From Gilliamella apis (lineage in GTDB: Bacteria; Pseudomonadota; Gammaproteobacteria; Enterobacterales; Orbaceae): a DNA stretch of 64,000 nt. This document shows positions 1 through 59,398 of the stretch, piece by piece (the stretch's first letter is position 1; each line of letters starts with the position of its first letter). The stretch covers positions 1 through 64,000 of the forward strand of contig NZ_NASD01000004.1 of NCBI RefSeq assembly GCF_002142155.1, written 5' to 3'. The notes beneath the pieces are model-generated. The model was not told the DNA's origin and ran no database searches. It saw only the letters and a list, made by a program, of their open reading frames with translations. A program made the translations under genes and the position numbers.

Positions 1-603
1 GGTATTACGGCGACGATGACCGATTCACCAGGCCACCACTACAACAACTACTACAGCATTCGAGTCACCCTAACTGGTCCTGTTGTTACACGCTCGCAAT
101 GGAATTCAGTTAATCCAGGTAGAATCGCCAGACCATCTTTACCGCAGGTGTTTGAGTTAGTCGGTCGTGATAGCAGTGGTAATGCGGTGGTCAAATATGG
201 ATTTGAGTTAAAGCAGTGGTTTATTCATCGTGGTAATAAGAGGGCTTGGGGTAATGGAGATTGGTGTACTAGTATAGGAGGATATCGTAATGTTAAGGTT
301 CAAGATTTAACAAATGCGTCTTGTCAGGGAGTTGGTGCAAATTCTAGCACCTGCCGAAGTGCAACGCCTACGTCACCTGATGATGAAATGCGGCGTCACA
401 TTGGTGCAGGATTTTTCACGGAATGGGGGGCGATGGGCTACTATACTGCCGGTTTCTACGACAGCTATGTGACGACAGATGGTAATGGTCGAGAGTTTGC
501 TCGTCGTGGGTTTTTTGAGGTTCACTCGGGTAATGGTAGGGTGTCTGAAGTTTTTAGCTACTACGAAGGCAACAAAGGAAACGTAGCCTGTGTCTATCCT
601 TAG
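1..603 (+). CDS. Surface/secreted protein, C-terminal part (5' end outside window)
   Basis: The reading frame is open from base 1, so only the last 200 codons are here. The protein matches the C-terminal half of the gene ending at 19617: both have GITAT, a FELVG-[KR]D segment, KYGF-[EQ]-LKQW, HRG, a WC-x(2)-IG-x-YR segment, DLTNA and a FF-[ST]-EWG segment. Paired cysteines and the WC/DLTNA/VHS pattern resemble C-type-lectin-like or Lcl/DUF1566-type C-terminal domains seen at the tips of some adhesins; that fold assignment is inference. A structured repeat starts about 80 bp after the stop codon. I do not recognise a named gene. The ATG at 16 is internal to the domain and is not the real start. 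Confidence 0.75.
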   Translation, partial: GITATMTDSPGHHYNNYYSIRVTLTGPVVTRSQWNSVNPGRIARPSLPQVFELVGRDSSGNAVVKYGFELKQWFIHRGNKRAWGNGDWCTSIGGYRNVKVQDLTNASCQGVGANSSTCRSATPTSPDDEMRRHIGAGFFTEWGAMGYYTAGFYDSYVTTDGNGREFARRGFFEVHSGNGRVSEVFSYYEGNKGNVACVYP

Positions 604-16504: not shown

Positions 16505-17593
16505 ATGAATTGGTTTTCACAGTATTCGCTTTTCCTGGCTGAAACAGTAACTGTTGTTGTTGCTATTCTAGCAATATTAATATTTATTTTATGTCAGCGT
16601 CGAAAATCATCCACAGTTGCTGGCCGAATGTCAGTTAAAGATATAAGCCAAGAGTATGAACAAGCTAAAGATGAAATGTTAATGTCTAGTATGGACGAGG
16701 TTGAAGCCAAACAATTCACTAAAGATCTAAAAAAACAAAAAAAACTTGAAAAGAAACAGGCTAAACAAGCAGCTAAACTAAATAAGAAACAAACAGATAC
16801 TGCGGCGTCGGACGATACTGTAAAATCACCCGAGACAACGTCTGCTTTACAGACAAAACCTAAACTGTTTGTTCTATCATTTAATGGTAGTATGGATGCG
16901 CATGAAGTTGAAGAGTTGCGCCAAGAAATTACTGCCGTATTAGCTATCATCAAACCAGAAGACGAAGTTGTGGTGAAACTTGAAAGCCCAGGTGGGGTAG
17001 TGCATGGTTATGGGTTGGCCGCTTCGCAATTATTACGATTTAGAACACGAAATATCCCTTTTACTGCGGTGGTAGATAAAGTTGCCGCCAGTGGCGGCTA
17101 TATGATGGCATGTACTGCTAACAAAATAGTTGCAGCGCCATTTGCTATTGTTGGTTCAATTGGGGTAGTTGCGCAAATTCCTAACTTTAATCGATTACTT
17201 AAAAAGCATGATGTTGATATTGAATTGCAAACAGCAGGCGAATACAAGCGAACTTTAACCATGTTTGGTGAAAACACTGACGAAGGTCGTCAAAAATTCA
17301 AGCAAGAATTGGAAGAGACTCATCTATTATTTAAAGACTTTGTAAAAGAGTATCGACCTAATATTGATATTGAACAGGTTGCTACAGGAGAACATTGGTT
17401 TGCAACACAAGCTAAAGAAAAGGGTTTAGTTGACGAAATTAGTACCAGTGATGATTTTATCTTATCGCATTTAGACACGCATAAAATCATTGCAGTTAAC
17501 TATCAACGAAAACAAAAGCTATCAGAAAAACTCTCGAAAAATGTTGTAAAAGGCATGGAAAGGTTATTCTTTAGACAAGGAAACGGACTATAA
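16505..17593 (+). CDS. sohB: Inner-membrane peptidase SohB, S49 family
   Basis: Signal-peptide-peptidase-like serine protease. 362 residues (E. coli 349). An N-terminal membrane helix (about 10-30) is followed by a long charged linker rich in Lys and Gln (65-100), then the S49 core. Catalytic Ser196 is in VAASGGYM and the general-base lysine is Lys248 in AGEYKRT. It is divergent from fhs. The terminator stem overlaps the end of the gene. Confidence 0.93.
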   Translation: MNWFSQYSLFLAETVTVVVAILAILIFILCQRRKSSTVAGRMSVKDISQEYEQAKDEMLMSSMDEVEAKQFTKDLKKQKKLEKKQAKQAAKLNKKQTDTAASDDTVKSPETTSALQTKPKLFVLSFNGSMDAHEVEELRQEITAVLAIIKPEDEVVVKLESPGGVVHGYGLAASQLLRFRTRNIPFTAVVDKVAASGGYMMACTANKIVAAPFAIVGSIGVVAQIPNFNRLLKKHDVDIELQTAGEYKRTLTMFGENTDEGRQKFKQELEETHLLFKDFVKEYRPNIDIEQVATGEHWFATQAKEKGLVDEISTSDDFILSHLDTHKIIAVNYQRKQKLSEKLSKNVVKGMERLFFRQGNGL

Positions 17594-17608: not shown

Positions 17609-18067
17609 TAAATGTCTCAGCTAAATTTATTACAACCCAATCATAAAATTTGCAAAATCTCATCAAGATAATCGTTAAAGTTGATATTTTTTAACAATGA
17701 TTAATTAACTTCAAAATAGCTTATTTTTAAGAATTTTAATGGTAAAAATTAGCTTAATTACTGAATATCGACAACTTAAAAAGAGCAACGAGTTATAGAT
17801 AAATATTTAGATAATTTATTGCTTAGTGATCTATTCTACGGACAATTTTTTAGCAAAAAAATAAGAAATAAGGCAAAAAATATAGGTTTAAAAAATTAAA
17901 TACCTTTACAAAAATTAACAATTTAGAGGTAAAAAAAATTGCATACTTTTTACTTAATCTCTATACTTTTCCTTATTCTTATTAAAGTGAAATTACTGAT
18001 TAGTAGTTAGTCAATTAAACGAAATAAATTAATATAAAACATTAATTTATTTGACATGGACTTTATT
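17609..18067. other. Very AT-rich region upstream of the phase-variable surface gene
   Basis: No gene is visible. 17838-17885 (GGACAATTTTTTAGC with a following A-rich run) resembles 19958-20000 on the far side of the surface gene. A good sigma-70 promoter is present near 17939. The rest is low-complexity A/T. Confidence 0.4.
17939..17967 (+). promoter_or_regulatory. Sigma-70 promoter for the surface-protein gene
   Basis: TTGCAT, a 17-bp spacer, then TATACT. Transcription would begin near 17974, leaving a leader of about 95 nt before the ATG at 18068. Confidence 0.5.
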
Positions 18068-18127
18068 ATGAGCTATAATTTTAACACCAAACACCAAACA
18101 CCAAACCTGCCCAAACCAATAATTTAA
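18068..18127 (+). other. N-terminal reading frame of the surface gene, cut off by a frameshift (OFF phase)
   Basis: ATG AGC TAT AAT starts here with a TGGA ribosome-site element 7 bases upstream. It runs through the heptamer repeat and stops after 19 codons. With one extra 7-bp copy it would continue directly into the long frame that is open from 18085 to 19617. Confidence 0.65.
18083..18106 (+). repeat. Heptanucleotide tandem repeat (AACACCA) x3 in a 5' coding region
   Basis: Three perfect copies of AACACCA at 18083-18103 plus AAC. Because 7 is not a multiple of 3, each gain or loss of a unit changes the frame. Three copies separate the ATG at 18068 from the downstream frame; four copies would join them into a 518-residue protein. 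Confidence 0.9.
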
Positions 18128-18252
18128 ATTCGCCTAATTTTAGCAATCAAGGTTTAATATTTCGTCAGAGTTTATTCCTCCACCAAAACTTAAGAAATTT
18201 TTTTAGTTCGATTTTATTTAAGCCAATTTTTTCGGTATTAGCGCTTGTTTTA

Positions 18253-19617
18253 TTGCTACTGTTATCATTTAGTAGTCAGTCTTTAACCGCTAGAACAACT
18301 CATATTATTCATGGTAATGCGCCATACTTAACTTTTGATGGTGGTCAGACTCGAGTTACTGATACAACTAAATTATTAGGTATTATTTTATCGGATGGAA
18401 GAACGTTTACAGCAAATAATAATTCGTCAATAACACCAATAATCTTGCCAAATCTTGGTGAAACTTTAGCTAATGTAGATATGCTGGTACCAATTGGTGC
18501 AGATTCAATTTCATTAACTTCAATTATTGGTTCGCCTTATAATTATTGGGGGGATGATGACGGTGATGGTCAGGAAAATAATGGTATCTCTGCTACAGGT
18601 TATTTAAGTTTAACTATTACTGACAAAGATAATCAAACTGTATCTCGTAATTCAACTTTAGATATTTGTAGAGCACCTTATAAAATCACATTAACCAGTA
18701 ATGATGGTATACTAAGTACCCAGTATGGCGTACCTAGTAGTAGCCATTTTGCAGGTAGTCATGCGACGTATTACATTAATCCCAACGAATCATCAAAAGT
18801 TTGCTTTGTTGCTCCAATATTATTTCCTGGTTCAAATACAGAGGTTAATGGTATCGATTTTCGGGGGCCTCCTTCTATATGGCTTGCCAATAAGGGGTTT
18901 ATTCCTCAGTCTACAACGCTATCAACTTACAATTTGAATTTTCCTACTACAGGAATGCATGATTTGTACTTTGACCTAGATATTGGAGGAGCAAGAGTTT
19001 TAACATGGGACTCGGTCGAACGGGGGGGAATTACCGCGACGTTAATCCCTGATTCAACAGGTTCACGTGTTACTGTCAAATTAACGGGGCCCAGTGCAAA
19101 AGATTTTCAATTAAATTCTGATTTACCCGGTAGTGTAGCAAAGCCTGTATTACCACAAACATTTGAGTTAGTTGGTAAAGATAGGCAAGGTAATCCTTTG
19201 ATAAAATATGGTTTTCAATTAAAACAATGGTATGTCCATCGAGGTGCAAATAATTACTATACTTATCCAAGTACCTTATCATGGTGCAGTAATATTGGTT
19301 ATCGTCTTCCTCAAATTAAAGATTTAACTAATGCTATTTGTGCAGGACCTTGGTGGGATGAGGAATGTCAAGGTTCGGTTAGTGCAACTCCATCTTCAAA
19401 CGGTAATAACTTTCAACGTGTAATTGGCGGAGGATTCTTCTCGGAGTGGGGACAAATGGACAAATATATTAGTAGTTTTTATGATAATCACAATTACTGG
19501 ACCATCGATTTTGTAGAAACAGATCGTTTAAGCCATTTTTCCGTTCACTCGAATAATGGTCACATTGCTCGGCATAAAAATGAAGTTGTACTCAGAGGTA
19601 TGTGTACTACCCCTTAA
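18253..19617 (+). CDS. Phase-variable surface/secreted protein (body of gene; true start at 18068 is out of frame)
   Basis: This frame is open from 18085 to 19617. The coordinates start at an in-frame TTG inside the signal-like helix, but the likely native start is the ATG at 18068, one frame away. The restored N terminus has about 60 polar residues, then a hydrophobic segment (SVLALVLLLLLSF) and a possible cleavage site near LTA, like an extended signal peptide. The body holds an aspartate-rich DDDGDGQENN loop and a cysteine-containing C-terminal domain shared with the gene at 1-603. A G7 run at 19022-19028 lies between body and C-terminal domain. Likely adhesin-like; the family is not recognised. 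TTG initiation inside the signal is possible but less convincing. Confidence 0.65.
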   Translation: MLLLSFSSQSLTARTTHIIHGNAPYLTFDGGQTRVTDTTKLLGIILSDGRTFTANNNSSITPIILPNLGETLANVDMLVPIGADSISLTSIIGSPYNYWGDDDGDGQENNGISATGYLSLTITDKDNQTVSRNSTLDICRAPYKITLTSNDGILSTQYGVPSSSHFAGSHATYYINPNESSKVCFVAPILFPGSNTEVNGIDFRGPPSIWLANKGFIPQSTTLSTYNLNFPTTGMHDLYFDLDIGGARVLTWDSVERGGITATLIPDSTGSRVTVKLTGPSAKDFQLNSDLPGSVAKPVLPQTFELVGKDRQGNPLIKYGFQLKQWYVHRGANNYYTYPSTLSWCSNIGYRLPQIKDLTNAICAGPWWDEECQGSVSATPSSNGNNFQRVIGGGFFSEWGQMDKYISSFYDNHNYWTIDFVETDRLSHFSVHSNNGHIARHKNEVVLRGMCTTP

Positions 19618-20204
19618 TTTTTTGTTAGAAAAATATAAGAGAGTACTAGCAAATTGCTAGAGAATTTCAACTATTCAGGAGATTAAAATCACATAGCCTT
19701 CAGTTTTACCTGAGGGTTTAAACAAGAAAGTTGAGGAACGGGGTTTTTTGAGCACTAAATGTCCACAAATTTTAGATTTTAATTAAAATTTTGCTAAGAA
19801 ATAATGGTTTTGATATCTGATATATTATTTTTTAATTACTAAAATATTTTGAGTCAATTATTGCTTAATTGGCAAAAAGATAAATATGGACAATCAACTG
19901 AACAACATTTTATAGATACGCTACAAAGAAAAATTGTTTCCAGTTACGCGTAGCGTACTGGGGCAATTTTTTCGGTCAAAAAATAAGCAAATAAAACTAA
20001 ATAACAGGTATAAATTATATTTATACTTTATCTAGATAAAGTACCTTATCAGCATCTCCTATTTATTAATCATGAATCTTAAGAGTTAATAATTATAAAC
20101 ACGTTGAGAATAAAGGCTTTTGCACTGCAAAAAAGTAATCTTGATTTTAAGTTATGCAACTCTATGCTATGCTTAACCTAATATTCGATCAAAGGACGTT
20201 CCAT
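19618..20204. other. Intergenic region between the surface gene and rnr
   Basis: Contains small hairpins (CTAGCAA-A-TTGCTAG at 19646-19660; CCTTCAG/CTGAGGG at 19697-19716). It also carries a third occurrence of the GAGGAACGRGGTTTTT tail found at the end of both 286-bp repeats (19732-19747), and a strong terminator-like stem near 19925-19972. The part after 19975 is AT-rich and must hold the rnr promoter. Confidence 0.45.
19925..19972 (+). terminator. Large stem-loop with T-run, probable terminator
   Basis: AAATTGTTTCCAGTTACGC pairs with GCGTACTGGGGCAATTT around a GTA loop, using G-U pairs and one bulge, and is followed by T. It is about 300 bp after the surface-gene stop, so it is either a distal terminator or part of another element. 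Confidence 0.5.
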
Positions 20205-22646
20205 ATGATAAAAGATCCATTTTATGATCGTGAGGCGCAAAAATATGATTCGCCGATCGCCAGCCGTGAACTGATTTTGGACTATCTCACCAAAGAAGCA
20301 AAACCAGCTAATTTAGATAAGATAGCCCAAGCAGTATCAATTAAGAATGATGAACAAAAAGAAGCATTACATCGAAGATTGCGGGCGATGGAACGTGATG
20401 GCCAAGTGGTGTTTACACGTCGTAAGTGTTATGCCTTACCGGAAAAATTCGATATGGTTAAGGGTAGTGTGATTGCACATCGTGATGGCTATGGTTTTCT
20501 GCGAGTTGAAGGTAAGCCGGAAGACTATTTCTTGTCACATGAGCAGATGAAAAAGGTTTTACAAGGTGATGTTATATTGGCTCAGCCAATCAACAGTCAA
20601 TACCGAGGTAAGACTGAAGCGCGCGTGGTGCGGATTTTAGAACCCCGCACTAATCAAATTGTTGGTCGTTATTTTGTTGAGCAAGGCGTTGGCTTTGTGG
20701 TGCCGGATGACAGTCGTTTGAATTTTGATATTTTGATCGCCGGTAAACCAAATCGTACTGTCAGAATGGGCTCGGTGGTTGTGGTTGAATTACAGCAACG
20801 ACCTGAGCGTCGTCAAAAAGCAGTCGGTATTATTAAAGAAGTTCTTGGCGAGATTATGGGAACCAATTTAGCTATCGATATTTCATTACGTAATCATGAA
20901 ATCCCTTATGAATTTCCTAAAGTGGTTGAAAAAGAGGCTAGCAAATTTAGTGAGCAAGTGCCAGAAAGCGCTAAAAAAGGCCGTAAAGATCTACGCGAGT
21001 TGCCGTTAGTAACCATTGATGGTGAAGATGCCCGTGATTTTGATGATGCGGTCTATTGCCAGAAAAATCGCGGCGGTGGCTATCGATTATGGGTAGCAAT
21101 TGCTGATGTGAGTTATTATGTTCGCAACGGTAAAGCTTTAGATAAAGAGGCTTGCTTACGAGGTACGTCAGTCTATTTTCCATCACGAGTGGTGCCAATG
21201 TTACCAGAAGTGTTATCTAATGGCCTTTGTTCTCTCAATCCACAAGTTGATCGTTTATGTTTAGTCTGTGAAATGACAGTGTCAAATAAAGGACGTTTAA
21301 CTGGTTATCAATTTTATGAAGCAGTAATGAACTCTCATGCACGCTTAACTTATACTAAGGTTGCCAAAATTTTAGAAGGTGATAAAGAGTTACGTGAGCA
21401 TTATCGAGAGTTAGTACCTCATCTTGAAAATCTTTATGGCTTATATAAGGTATTAGATAATGCTCGAGTTACTCGTGGCGCGATTGGTTTTGAGTCAGAA
21501 GAGCCAAAATTCATTTTTAATGCAGATAAACGTATTGAGAGTATTGAATTAGTCCAGCGTAATGAAGCACATAAAATTATTGAGGAGTGTATGATTTTAG
21601 CCAATGTTGCTGCGGCAAAATTGGTCATTAATGCTGAGATTCCGTCTTTATTCCGCGTGCATGATAGACCTGATGAAGATCGCATGAATAATTTACGCAG
21701 TATTTTAAGTGAACTCGGTTTATCACTTGGCGGTGGTGCAAATCCAACACCTAAAGATATTGCCAAATTAATGGTTGATGTTGAAGCAAGACCCGATCAT
21801 GAGATGTTACAGACTGTAATTTTACGCTCAATGAAGCAAGCAATTTATGATCCCGAAAATCGTGGTCATTTTGGTCTAGCGCTTGACGAATATGCCCATT
21901 TCACATCGCCAATTCGTCGTTATCCTGATTTATTATTACATCGTGCCATTAAATGGGTACTAGCGAATGAACAACATAAAACCAGTAAAACTGGTGGGCA
22001 TCGTTATACCACTAGCGAAATGCTTTATTTTGGTGAACACTGCTCAATGACTGAACGTCGTGCGGATGAAGCCGTGCGTGATGTCGTTGATTGGCTAAAA
22101 TGTGACTATATGCAAGATCATGTTGGTGAGGTATTCAATGGTACTATCTCTAGTGTGGTTAATTTCGGCTTTTTTGTCCGGTTAGATGATCTGTTTATTG
22201 ATGGTTTAGTGCATGTTTCGTCACTGGAAAATGATTATTATATTTATGATGCATCACGTAACCGTCTAATTGGTGAGAATACTCACTTTAGTTATCGTTT
22301 AGGTGATAAAGTTCAAGTAAAAGTCGATAATGTTAACCCAGAAGAGCGTAAAATTGATTTTTCTTTGGTCGGCAGTAATAATAAGCCACAACGCCAAGGT
22401 AAGACGGCAAGAGATAAAGCTAATAAAGCTGATATAAGTTTTGCTGCTGATTTACCAGTAAAACGTAAAGCTAAAAGTCCAACAGATAGCAAAAAGAAAA
22501 AAGCGAACGCTAAAGTAGCAAATAAAGCAGAAGCTAAAGTAAAAAGTAAAAAGCGCACAAAAGCTAAAGCAAAATCTAAAGCGGCATCTAAGACTAAATC
22601 TAAATCAGCATCGACATCAAGTAATAAGAGAAAAAAGAGTAATTAA
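20205..22646 (+). CDS. rnr: Ribonuclease R
   Basis: Processive 3'-5' exoribonuclease that degrades structured RNA and helps in rRNA and tmRNA quality control. With the ATG at 20205 ([19 protein letters not shown] 8 bases upstream) it has 813 residues, the same as E. coli. The order is an N-terminal helix-turn-helix, cold-shock domains, the RNB catalytic domain with [12 protein letters not shown], an S1 domain near the C terminus ([15 protein letters not shown]) and a Lys/Ala/Ser-rich basic tail of about 70 residues. An in-frame extension from 20154 is unlikely. It forms an operon with rlmB. Confidence 0.95.
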
Positions 22647-58489: not shown

Positions 58490-59398
58490 CTATTTAGTAT
58501 TTTTGATTAATTCAGCAATACCACCAATGCTACCCATTAAGCTAGATGCATCAAGTGGCATCATTACCACTTTGCTGTTATCTGAAGCTCCAATTTGTTG
58601 TAACGCTTCAGTATATTTTTGCGCAACAAAGTAGTTGATGGCATTAATATTACCAGCTGCAATAGCGTCCGAAACCATTTGTGTTGCTTTAGCTTCCGCT
58701 TCGGCCGCACGTTCACGTGCTTCAGCTTGTAAAAATGCAGCTTGTTTTTCACCTTCAGCTTTTAAAATTTCTGACTGTTTTTCACCTTCAGAACGTAAAA
58801 TAGCCGCTTGACGAACACCTTCTGCTTCAAGAATTTCTGCACGTTTATTACGTTCAGCTTTCATCTGCGCATTCATGGCTGCAATTAGTTCTGCCGGTGG
58901 ACGAACATCACGAATTTCAATACGGGTAATTTTGATTCCCCATGGGCTAGTTGCATCATCGACAATACTAAGTAGTTTTGAGTTAATATGGTCACGTTGT
59001 GATAACATCTCATCAAGCTCCATACTACCAAGTACGGTACGAATGTTTGTCATCATTAGGTTAATGACGGCACGTTCAAGTTGATTAACTTGATAAGCGG
59101 CTCTTGCTGCTTCTTGTACTTGTATAAAGCAAACTGCGTCAATTTGTACATTTGCATTATCTTTAGAAATAACTTCTTGAGATGGGATATCAAGTACTTG
59201 TTCCATCATATTAATTTTACGGCCCACACCATCCATAAAAGGAATAATAATATTTAAACCCGGTTCTAAGGTATGAGTATATTTACCGAAACGCTCGATA
59301 GTATATTGGTATCCTTGTGGAACAATAGTGATAGCTTTAAAAACTGTTACAACTGCAAGTAAAACGATTACTGCAATAAGAATAAAAAAGATTGGCAT
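58490..59398 (-). CDS. qmcA: SPFH-domain (stomatin-like) membrane protein QmcA
   Basis: 302 residues (E. coli 305). N-terminal membrane anchor, an SPFH/PHB domain with [17 protein letters not shown] and [20 protein letters not shown], then a repetitive Ala/Glu coiled coil ([20 protein letters not shown]). Such proteins form membrane cages that regulate FtsH-type proteases. It is divergent from the trp operon. Confidence 0.93.

Follow-up and report, generated by a model that had tools for sequence, protein, structure and literature searches.

A putative default-OFF heptanucleotide switch shared by a family of predicted surface protein genes in Gilliamella

Introduction

Is a gene whose start codon leads through three heptanucleotide units into an early stop simply damaged, or is it a switch caught in its OFF state? 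The question is posed by positions 18068 to 19617 of a 64,000-nucleotide (nt) stretch of the Gilliamella apis genome (RefSeq assembly GCF_002142155.1, contig NZ_NASD01000004.1, positions 1 to 64,000; hereafter, the window). A previous sequence-only reading described an ATG at 18068 followed by three AACACCA units and a stop after 19 codons, with the neighboring frame open from 18085 to 19617. The sequence bears out the former coordinates and the open reading frame (ORF) analysis the latter, the open frame being offset from the 19-codon leader frame. The locus comprises the following parts.

18068..18127, + strand: leader ATG (18068-18070) and the 19-codon frame of the OFF state, stop included (18125-18127); from the sequence
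18083..18106, + strand: heptamer array AACACCA, three full units and a partial one (3.4 copies, 100% match); from a tandem-repeat search
18085..18252, + strand: N-terminal coding region read in the body frame, extending into the beginning of the hydrophobic segment; from the stop-free body frame behind the array
18253..19617, + strand: rest of the signal-like segment and predicted exported body, with a fast-varying C-terminal part; from family matches and the ratio of nonsynonymous to synonymous substitution rates (dN/dS)

Beyond that first reading, the gene is one of dozens, OFF is the default state of the family and not a random phase, and a perfect promoter match overlaps the start. Comparison of frames and repeat numbers across the family indicates that a set of frameshift contingency genes that are OFF by default is very probably the best explanation.

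Results

Family extent and leader design

A search of the own genome with the window body (454 amino acids) gave 48 matches at E ≤ 0.001, of which some are fragmentary or weak. At E ≤ 1e-5, matches were found in 35 of the 60 genomes searched, own included: within the genus in 34 of 35 genomes (four of them weak, E about 1e-6 to 1e-7), outside it in one other genome from its taxonomic family, and in none of the 24 genomes from other families of the order. Relatives with the same protein carry the names Gilliamella or Orbaceae. The member set compiled for comparison contains 262 distinct members from 29 genomes.

Many members share a leader formed by a Shine-Dalgarno (SD) sequence, an ATG, Tyr-Asn codons, and then a perfect heptamer array. 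Among the 209 members with a recognized leader, this position holds a perfect period-7 stretch in 114, a stretch with one mismatch (mostly at its edge) in 9, and one with two to seven mismatches in 10, the remaining 76 having no noteworthy period-7 stretch. A degenerate pattern of an array behind TATAAT has 38 matches in the own genome versus 0 for the reversed control; the heptamer array is therefore not a product of chance. In array-less relatives, the body is in frame with an ATG that is followed by similar codons, and copies that lack a clean array and have an in-frame upstream ATG are present in each of the seven best-sampled genomes.

One and the same leader block precedes strongly diverged bodies in L092 (own genome, contig C23, around 153 kb) and in L302 and L303 (genome G006), as if the switch moved as a module.

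Copy number and reading frame

In the array census we accepted perfect period-7 runs of at least three units that were preceded by an ATG or GTG at a distance of 2-18 nt and followed by an open frame of 250 codons or more. These criteria were passed by 157 of 197 deduplicated arrays; the failures listed (30) are mostly reverse-strand readings of true arrays, and they include a three-unit G032 copy whose body contains a stop. The arrays came through the family and pattern searches, hence do not form a blind genome-wide sample, and sampling is uneven, most of them coming from genomes G000, G024, G023, G027, G032, and G006.

Arrays of 3-4 units (147 from 16 genomes) are out of frame with the body (OFF) in 139 cases and in frame (ON) in 8, versus one-third in frame under random frames (P = 2.6e-16, only a guide since the copies are related). 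The state follows the unit number: 138 of 139 three-unit arrays are OFF, whereas seven of eight four-unit arrays are ON, the in-frame four-unit copies being found in six genomes. In the own genome all 36 short arrays are OFF. In three-unit copies, the frame begun at the ATG closes after 14-36 codons, in most cases 19, 22, or 26. As arithmetic predicts, the two two-unit copies that were measured fall into the remaining wrong frame, and a one-unit copy reads in frame; among arrays of at least 7 units, 2 of 10 are ON. These counts support the earlier proposal of a contingency locus that is OFF here.

A matching copy in another species has one unit more. A G006 copy with 4.4 repeats is in frame, whereas its best own-genome match, with 3.4 repeats, is out of frame; the two are 91.9% identical in DNA over 1,753 bp, leader included, and both lie inside clusters of such copies. 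This pair is a best match between species, neither within a strain nor at the window's own locus, for which the member set holds no partner differing by three versus four units.

An array-bearing member would be read as a layout of an upstream promoter candidate (P1), an SD, an ATG, a short array in the first codons, and a long N-terminal extension; behind these come a hydrophobic segment with a predicted role in export and a body whose C-terminal part evolves fast. Translation from the leader ATG would pass through the array; in a three-unit copy the ribosome would reach the early stop and leave the body unmade, and in a four-unit copy it would stay in frame. Since three units are OFF and four are ON, gain or loss of a unit should turn a member on or off, and we infer that slippage is the cause and that it occurs in living cells. 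With arrays of only three units, switching should be rare, leaving a large silent library from which few members are shown at a time.

A stricter arrangement, in which members are expressed one at a time as in antigenic variation with mutual exclusion, is very improbable. Exactly one in-frame short array is found in six of the seven genomes that have any, which is what such exclusion would produce; G006, however, has two, array-less in-frame copies come in addition, and at most two in-frame short arrays per genome are expected by chance (P = 0.36). We had entertained one ON copy per genome on a first count (5 of 123 ON), which was already within chance (P = 0.16), and dropped it when the wider census gave the second in-frame array in G006.

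Coding integrity and start sites of silent copies

In the 125 array copies, the stretch from the array to the signal segment contains 0 stops in 7,838 codons of the body frame, versus 438 stops in 7,796 codons and 628 in 7,730 in the other two frames, where 6 of 125 copies and none, respectively, are stop-free. Array copies whose stop lies inside the retrieved DNA have frames of 480-617 codons in 109 of 111 cases. Pairs sampled for substitution rates (60 from 236) gave a median dN/dS of 0.59 in the N-terminal part (with 59 pairs usable), 0.39 in the body, and 0.87 in the C-terminal part. The last of these is the variable one, through diversification or relaxed constraint. Judged by sequence alone, the silent alleles are kept functional. 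Genes that are OFF in nearly every assembly and yet constrained must be ON often enough for selection to see them.

These observations bear on whether the three-unit OFF copies are pseudogenes of a decaying family, spread by duplication. The many duplicated copies, the C-terminal dN/dS, and one three-unit copy with a body stop would suit such decay. It is nonetheless hardly credible, given the stop-free body frames behind the array, the at least 480 codons retained by almost all copies, and arrays that are uniform yet change independently.

The protein might instead be made at any array length, be it from an internal start, by a programmed frameshift, or by a hop across the repeat. For the window, the start signals are as follows.

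18057..18060, + strand: weak SD-like TGGA, 7 nt before the ATG; from the sequence

At the leader ATG an SD is at least weak in 124 of 125 array copies and strong in 77. Behind the array, 62 of 125 copies have some in-frame ATG, which would allow for an internal start, and the near-constant three units could mean a fixed functional element; an RNA begun at the second promoter-like element, P2 (below), would moreover be without the leader ATG. Against this, an in-frame internal ATG with a strong SD occurs in 0 of 125 array copies and any SD-equipped internal start in 1 of 125. The absence of body-frame stops between the array and the hydrophobic segment and the array-less relatives that are in frame from the leader ATG likewise speak for translation from the leader, and the units vary freely in sequence, which a frameshift signal would not. 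Expression irrespective of array length is accordingly improbable. The overlapping promoter had also suggested that the leader ATG might not be a start codon, an idea that we rejected because array-less relatives are in frame and SD-equipped internal starts are nearly absent.

The sequence-only reading had named, as grounds for giving it up, a three-copy repeat fixed in all relatives with protein made from an internal start, or homologs devoid of the N-terminal part. None of these was observed: the three-unit state is near-universal but not fixed, the internal starts are as rare as stated, and the N-terminal part is kept, with 27 to 129 codons to the anchor.

Alternatively, the silent copies could serve as an archive of donors from which gene conversion supplies a few always-on copies, the array being a by-product. 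Leader blocks common to strongly diverged bodies, the in-frame copies without a clean array in each of the seven best-sampled genomes, and the preservation of full-length silent copies are in line with such an archive. The natural four-unit in-frame copies in six genomes speak against it, and donors would not require an SD, an ATG, and stop-free arrays; we consider it unlikely.

Variation of the repeat unit and array length

The reading that we prefer, a default-OFF contingency family, implies that the arrays gain and lose units. Across the family, 28 distinct repeat units are listed (22 heptamers), all stop-free in tandem; the expectation for random heptamers at 34% GC is 53%, the units being related and not independent trials. 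Unit sequence varies between copies, with six types in six arrays of genome G005 and six in thirteen of G032. Since each array is uniform though the units differ between copies, a substitution must have spread through all units of an array, which needs both gain and loss of units. The arrays thus seem to slip on an evolutionary time scale, yet to come back to three units. An array of three is the smallest that combines being OFF with needing a single gain to be ON and with remaining OFF when one unit is lost, which may be a reason for its prevalence.

Genome G004 differs in its arrays, in which heptamers or octamers are repeated 7 to 26 times; 3 of 12 are in frame. Octamer arrays of 17-26 units are found in its copies L055, L249, L339, and L346, the other G004 copies having 7-16 heptamers; all lie close behind the ATG.

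Distant paralogs carry GCCA tetramer arrays of 13-23 units at the position of the heptamer array, in mixed frames: L106 (own genome, contig C1), L129 and L304 (G006), L294 (G014), and, in G016, L247, L250, L253, L256, L262, L265, and L268. One further G016 copy, L058, has AGCA x 22.8. In L009 / L090 (own genome, contig C23, around 92 kb), the nine-base repeat ATTTCGACA x 5.6 lengthens the N-terminal part and leaves the frame unchanged.

Promoter-like elements at the start

Two promoter-like elements accompany the start of the window gene.

17939..17967, + strand: P1, candidate promoter TTGCAT-N17-TATACT located 100 nt upstream of the ATG; motif only
18051..18079, + strand: P2, TTGACA-N17-TATAAT straddling the start codon, expected transcription start inside the array; 12/12 consensus match

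P2 is sigma-70-like and the sole 12/12 match among 12 promoter-like matches nearby; shuffled sequences average 12.5 promoter-like matches, so that a single match proves nothing. Its geometry is peculiar, the ATG lying within the spacer and the array starting after 3 bases behind the -10 box. Across the family, a P2-type pair (score at least 10, -10 box near the ATG) is found in 123 of 125 array copies and 18 of 44 array-less in-frame copies, in 8 of 12 long-array copies of G004, and in none of 168 control ORFs (non-family ORFs with an ATG and SD from the retrieved DNA). Member ATGs were chosen partly by likeness to TATAATTT, which favors the -10 box in both the array and the array-less group, and the -35 box is therefore the cleaner test. 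A -35 box with at least 5/6 matches is present in all 78 distinct array leaders versus 20 of 43 array-less leaders. After grouping of similar leaders, the association of the pair with the array has P between 1.5e-5 and 2.7e-12.

Common descent was addressed with a FastTree tree built from the bodies of 152 members, with 17 short ones excluded; this tree ignores possible recombination of leaders apart from bodies. In 15 supported independent pairs differing in the array, the -35 box differed on average in the same way in 7.7, in the opposite way in 0.0, and not at all in 7.3 (median p 0.008, range 0.002-0.06). For P1, the corresponding averages were 2.1 in the same and 2.1 in the opposite way. 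The P2 -35 box thus tends to go with the array. Among the array copies, 80 of 121 have a P1-type pair (60-135 nt upstream, score at least 10/12), as do 26 of the 44 array-less in-frame copies; P1 is weak in some genomes, e.g., G023.

In G004 the ATG stands at the end of the -10 box, and the array again starts within a few bases of that box. With the ATG placed differently and the array spacing kept, the box pair appears to be positioned relative to the repeat and not to the start codon. An RNA begun at P2 would be without the leader ATG and should not make protein. P2 may expose the array, block P1, or do something else. We put forward, as a doubtful proposal, that P2 is kept for the repeat and not for expression, the open complex and the first polymerase steps on the array setting the slippage rate (or blocking P1 in the silent state). 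If true, the family would be a silent library with transcription-tuned switching, and three units would be a low-risk state one step from ON.

Protein body

The window protein has no match to a family in Pfam, NCBIfam, or PHROGs. A profile built from a 63-member alignment (the window protein and 62 of the 63 named-locus rows tested, one row having a stop) found no PDB sequences. Pfam Intimin_C was matched at E ≤ 0.1 by 4 of the 63 members, the best at 0.001 and below the curated cut-off, and Invasin_D4 weakly by one member; Intimin_C was not found in the window protein. When C-terminal pieces were compared with Intimin_C, two of six gave any match, the best with 22.8 bits versus a cut-off of 27, and the window piece gave none. 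Sequence models revealed no outer-membrane barrel anchor, be it a Pfam family in the 63 members or an NCBIfam or PHROGs family in the window protein. The C-terminal part of a few relatives may faintly resemble a C-type lectin tip. We did not adopt an assignment to intimins or invasins. A hydrophobic stretch lies near residues 49-60 of the 18085-19617 ORF as it stands, and the protein is presumed to reach the surface and to bind something there.

Other features of the window and its genome

The window holds a second trace of the family at its edge.

1..603, + strand: C-terminal piece of a further family member, truncated where contig and window begin; match at 55-546, open frame 1-603

Family copies likewise lie at or close to an end of several other contigs of this assembly (2.52 Mb, 54 contigs), and breaks in the assembly may be due to these repeats. 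The window locus is flanked by ORFs at 16505-17593 and 20154-22646, whose translations we take to be peptidase-like and RNase R-like, respectively. A 33-base tandem repeat at 58720-58791 (2.2 copies, 84% match) has a length that keeps the frame. In G011 (contig C1, around 1.005-1.010 Mb), two family matches both have a 1,556-codon open frame, possibly a fusion of members.

Discussion

Several observations weigh against a default-OFF contingency family. Known switches have longer arrays than three units, and slippage of such short ones may be very rare. The genome comparison consists of assemblies, with one genome per species. Exceptions exist in both directions: the sole in-frame three-unit copy (G027) owes its frame to one extra base after the array and not to a unit, one four-unit run (G028) is OFF, a partial unit probably inflating its count, and a body stop interrupts at least one three-unit copy (G032). 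The SD of the window gene is weak. The C-terminal dN/dS near 1 fits relaxed constraint as well, with values above 1 in single pairs. Finally, the hydrophobic segment and a weak resemblance are the grounds for surface location and function, and a simple hydrophobicity threshold is passed by only 84 of 125 array copies.

Heptamer switches have precedents. In neuO of Escherichia coli K1 (prophage CUS-3), the heptamer AAGACTC lies in the 5' coding region and its copy number sets the frame; this is one gene with 3-53 repeats, OFF in 42 of 64 genomes (65.6%), about the random-phase level (PMC13001214). The Gilliamella family likewise has a heptamer in the 5' coding region that sets the frame, but it comprises dozens of genes with three units almost everywhere and 139 of 147 short arrays OFF. 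For Haemophilus influenzae, a second source describes (AACAACC)1-7 heptamers as well as heptamers at the adhesin genes hmw1A/hmw2A and at a TonB-receptor gene; the hmw repeats, reported with 13-38 units about 70-106 bp upstream in a promoter region with two possible start sites, tune transcription (PMC2651432). Heptamer repeats at surface protein genes, predicted ones in Gilliamella, are common to both systems, whereas the Gilliamella array lies in the coding start, behind P2. With respect to intimins and invasins, the likeness is a weak C-terminal one in a few members; it was not found in the window protein, and sequence gave no anchor domain.

Many contingency loci in one host-associated genome are familiar from Neisseria and Haemophilus, where the phase-variable sets are mostly unrelated genes with different repeats. 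The Gilliamella set is, in contrast, one family with one leader design and one default state. Our search of the literature on Gilliamella and the bee gut, with most subscription journals outside its coverage, gave no report of phase variation in Gilliamella, and among the matches listed from the broader phase-variation literature Gilliamella was not mentioned. The apparent novelty lies in the scale, in a short array common to the members, in their being OFF by default, and in a promoter that is linked to the repeat.

Most known contingency loci come from pathogens, where they are often individual genes whose repeats are longer and whose phase is mixed, neuO being an example. Here, a beneficial insect symbiont would possess a dozens-strong family with one switch design, one short length, and an OFF default. 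Such a family would let one study in nature how repeat length is tuned by selection, and its promoter on the repeat would make it possible to ask directly whether slippage is driven by transcription. It also raises the question of why a commensal would need variable surface proteins, be it for the host, for phages, or for rival strains.
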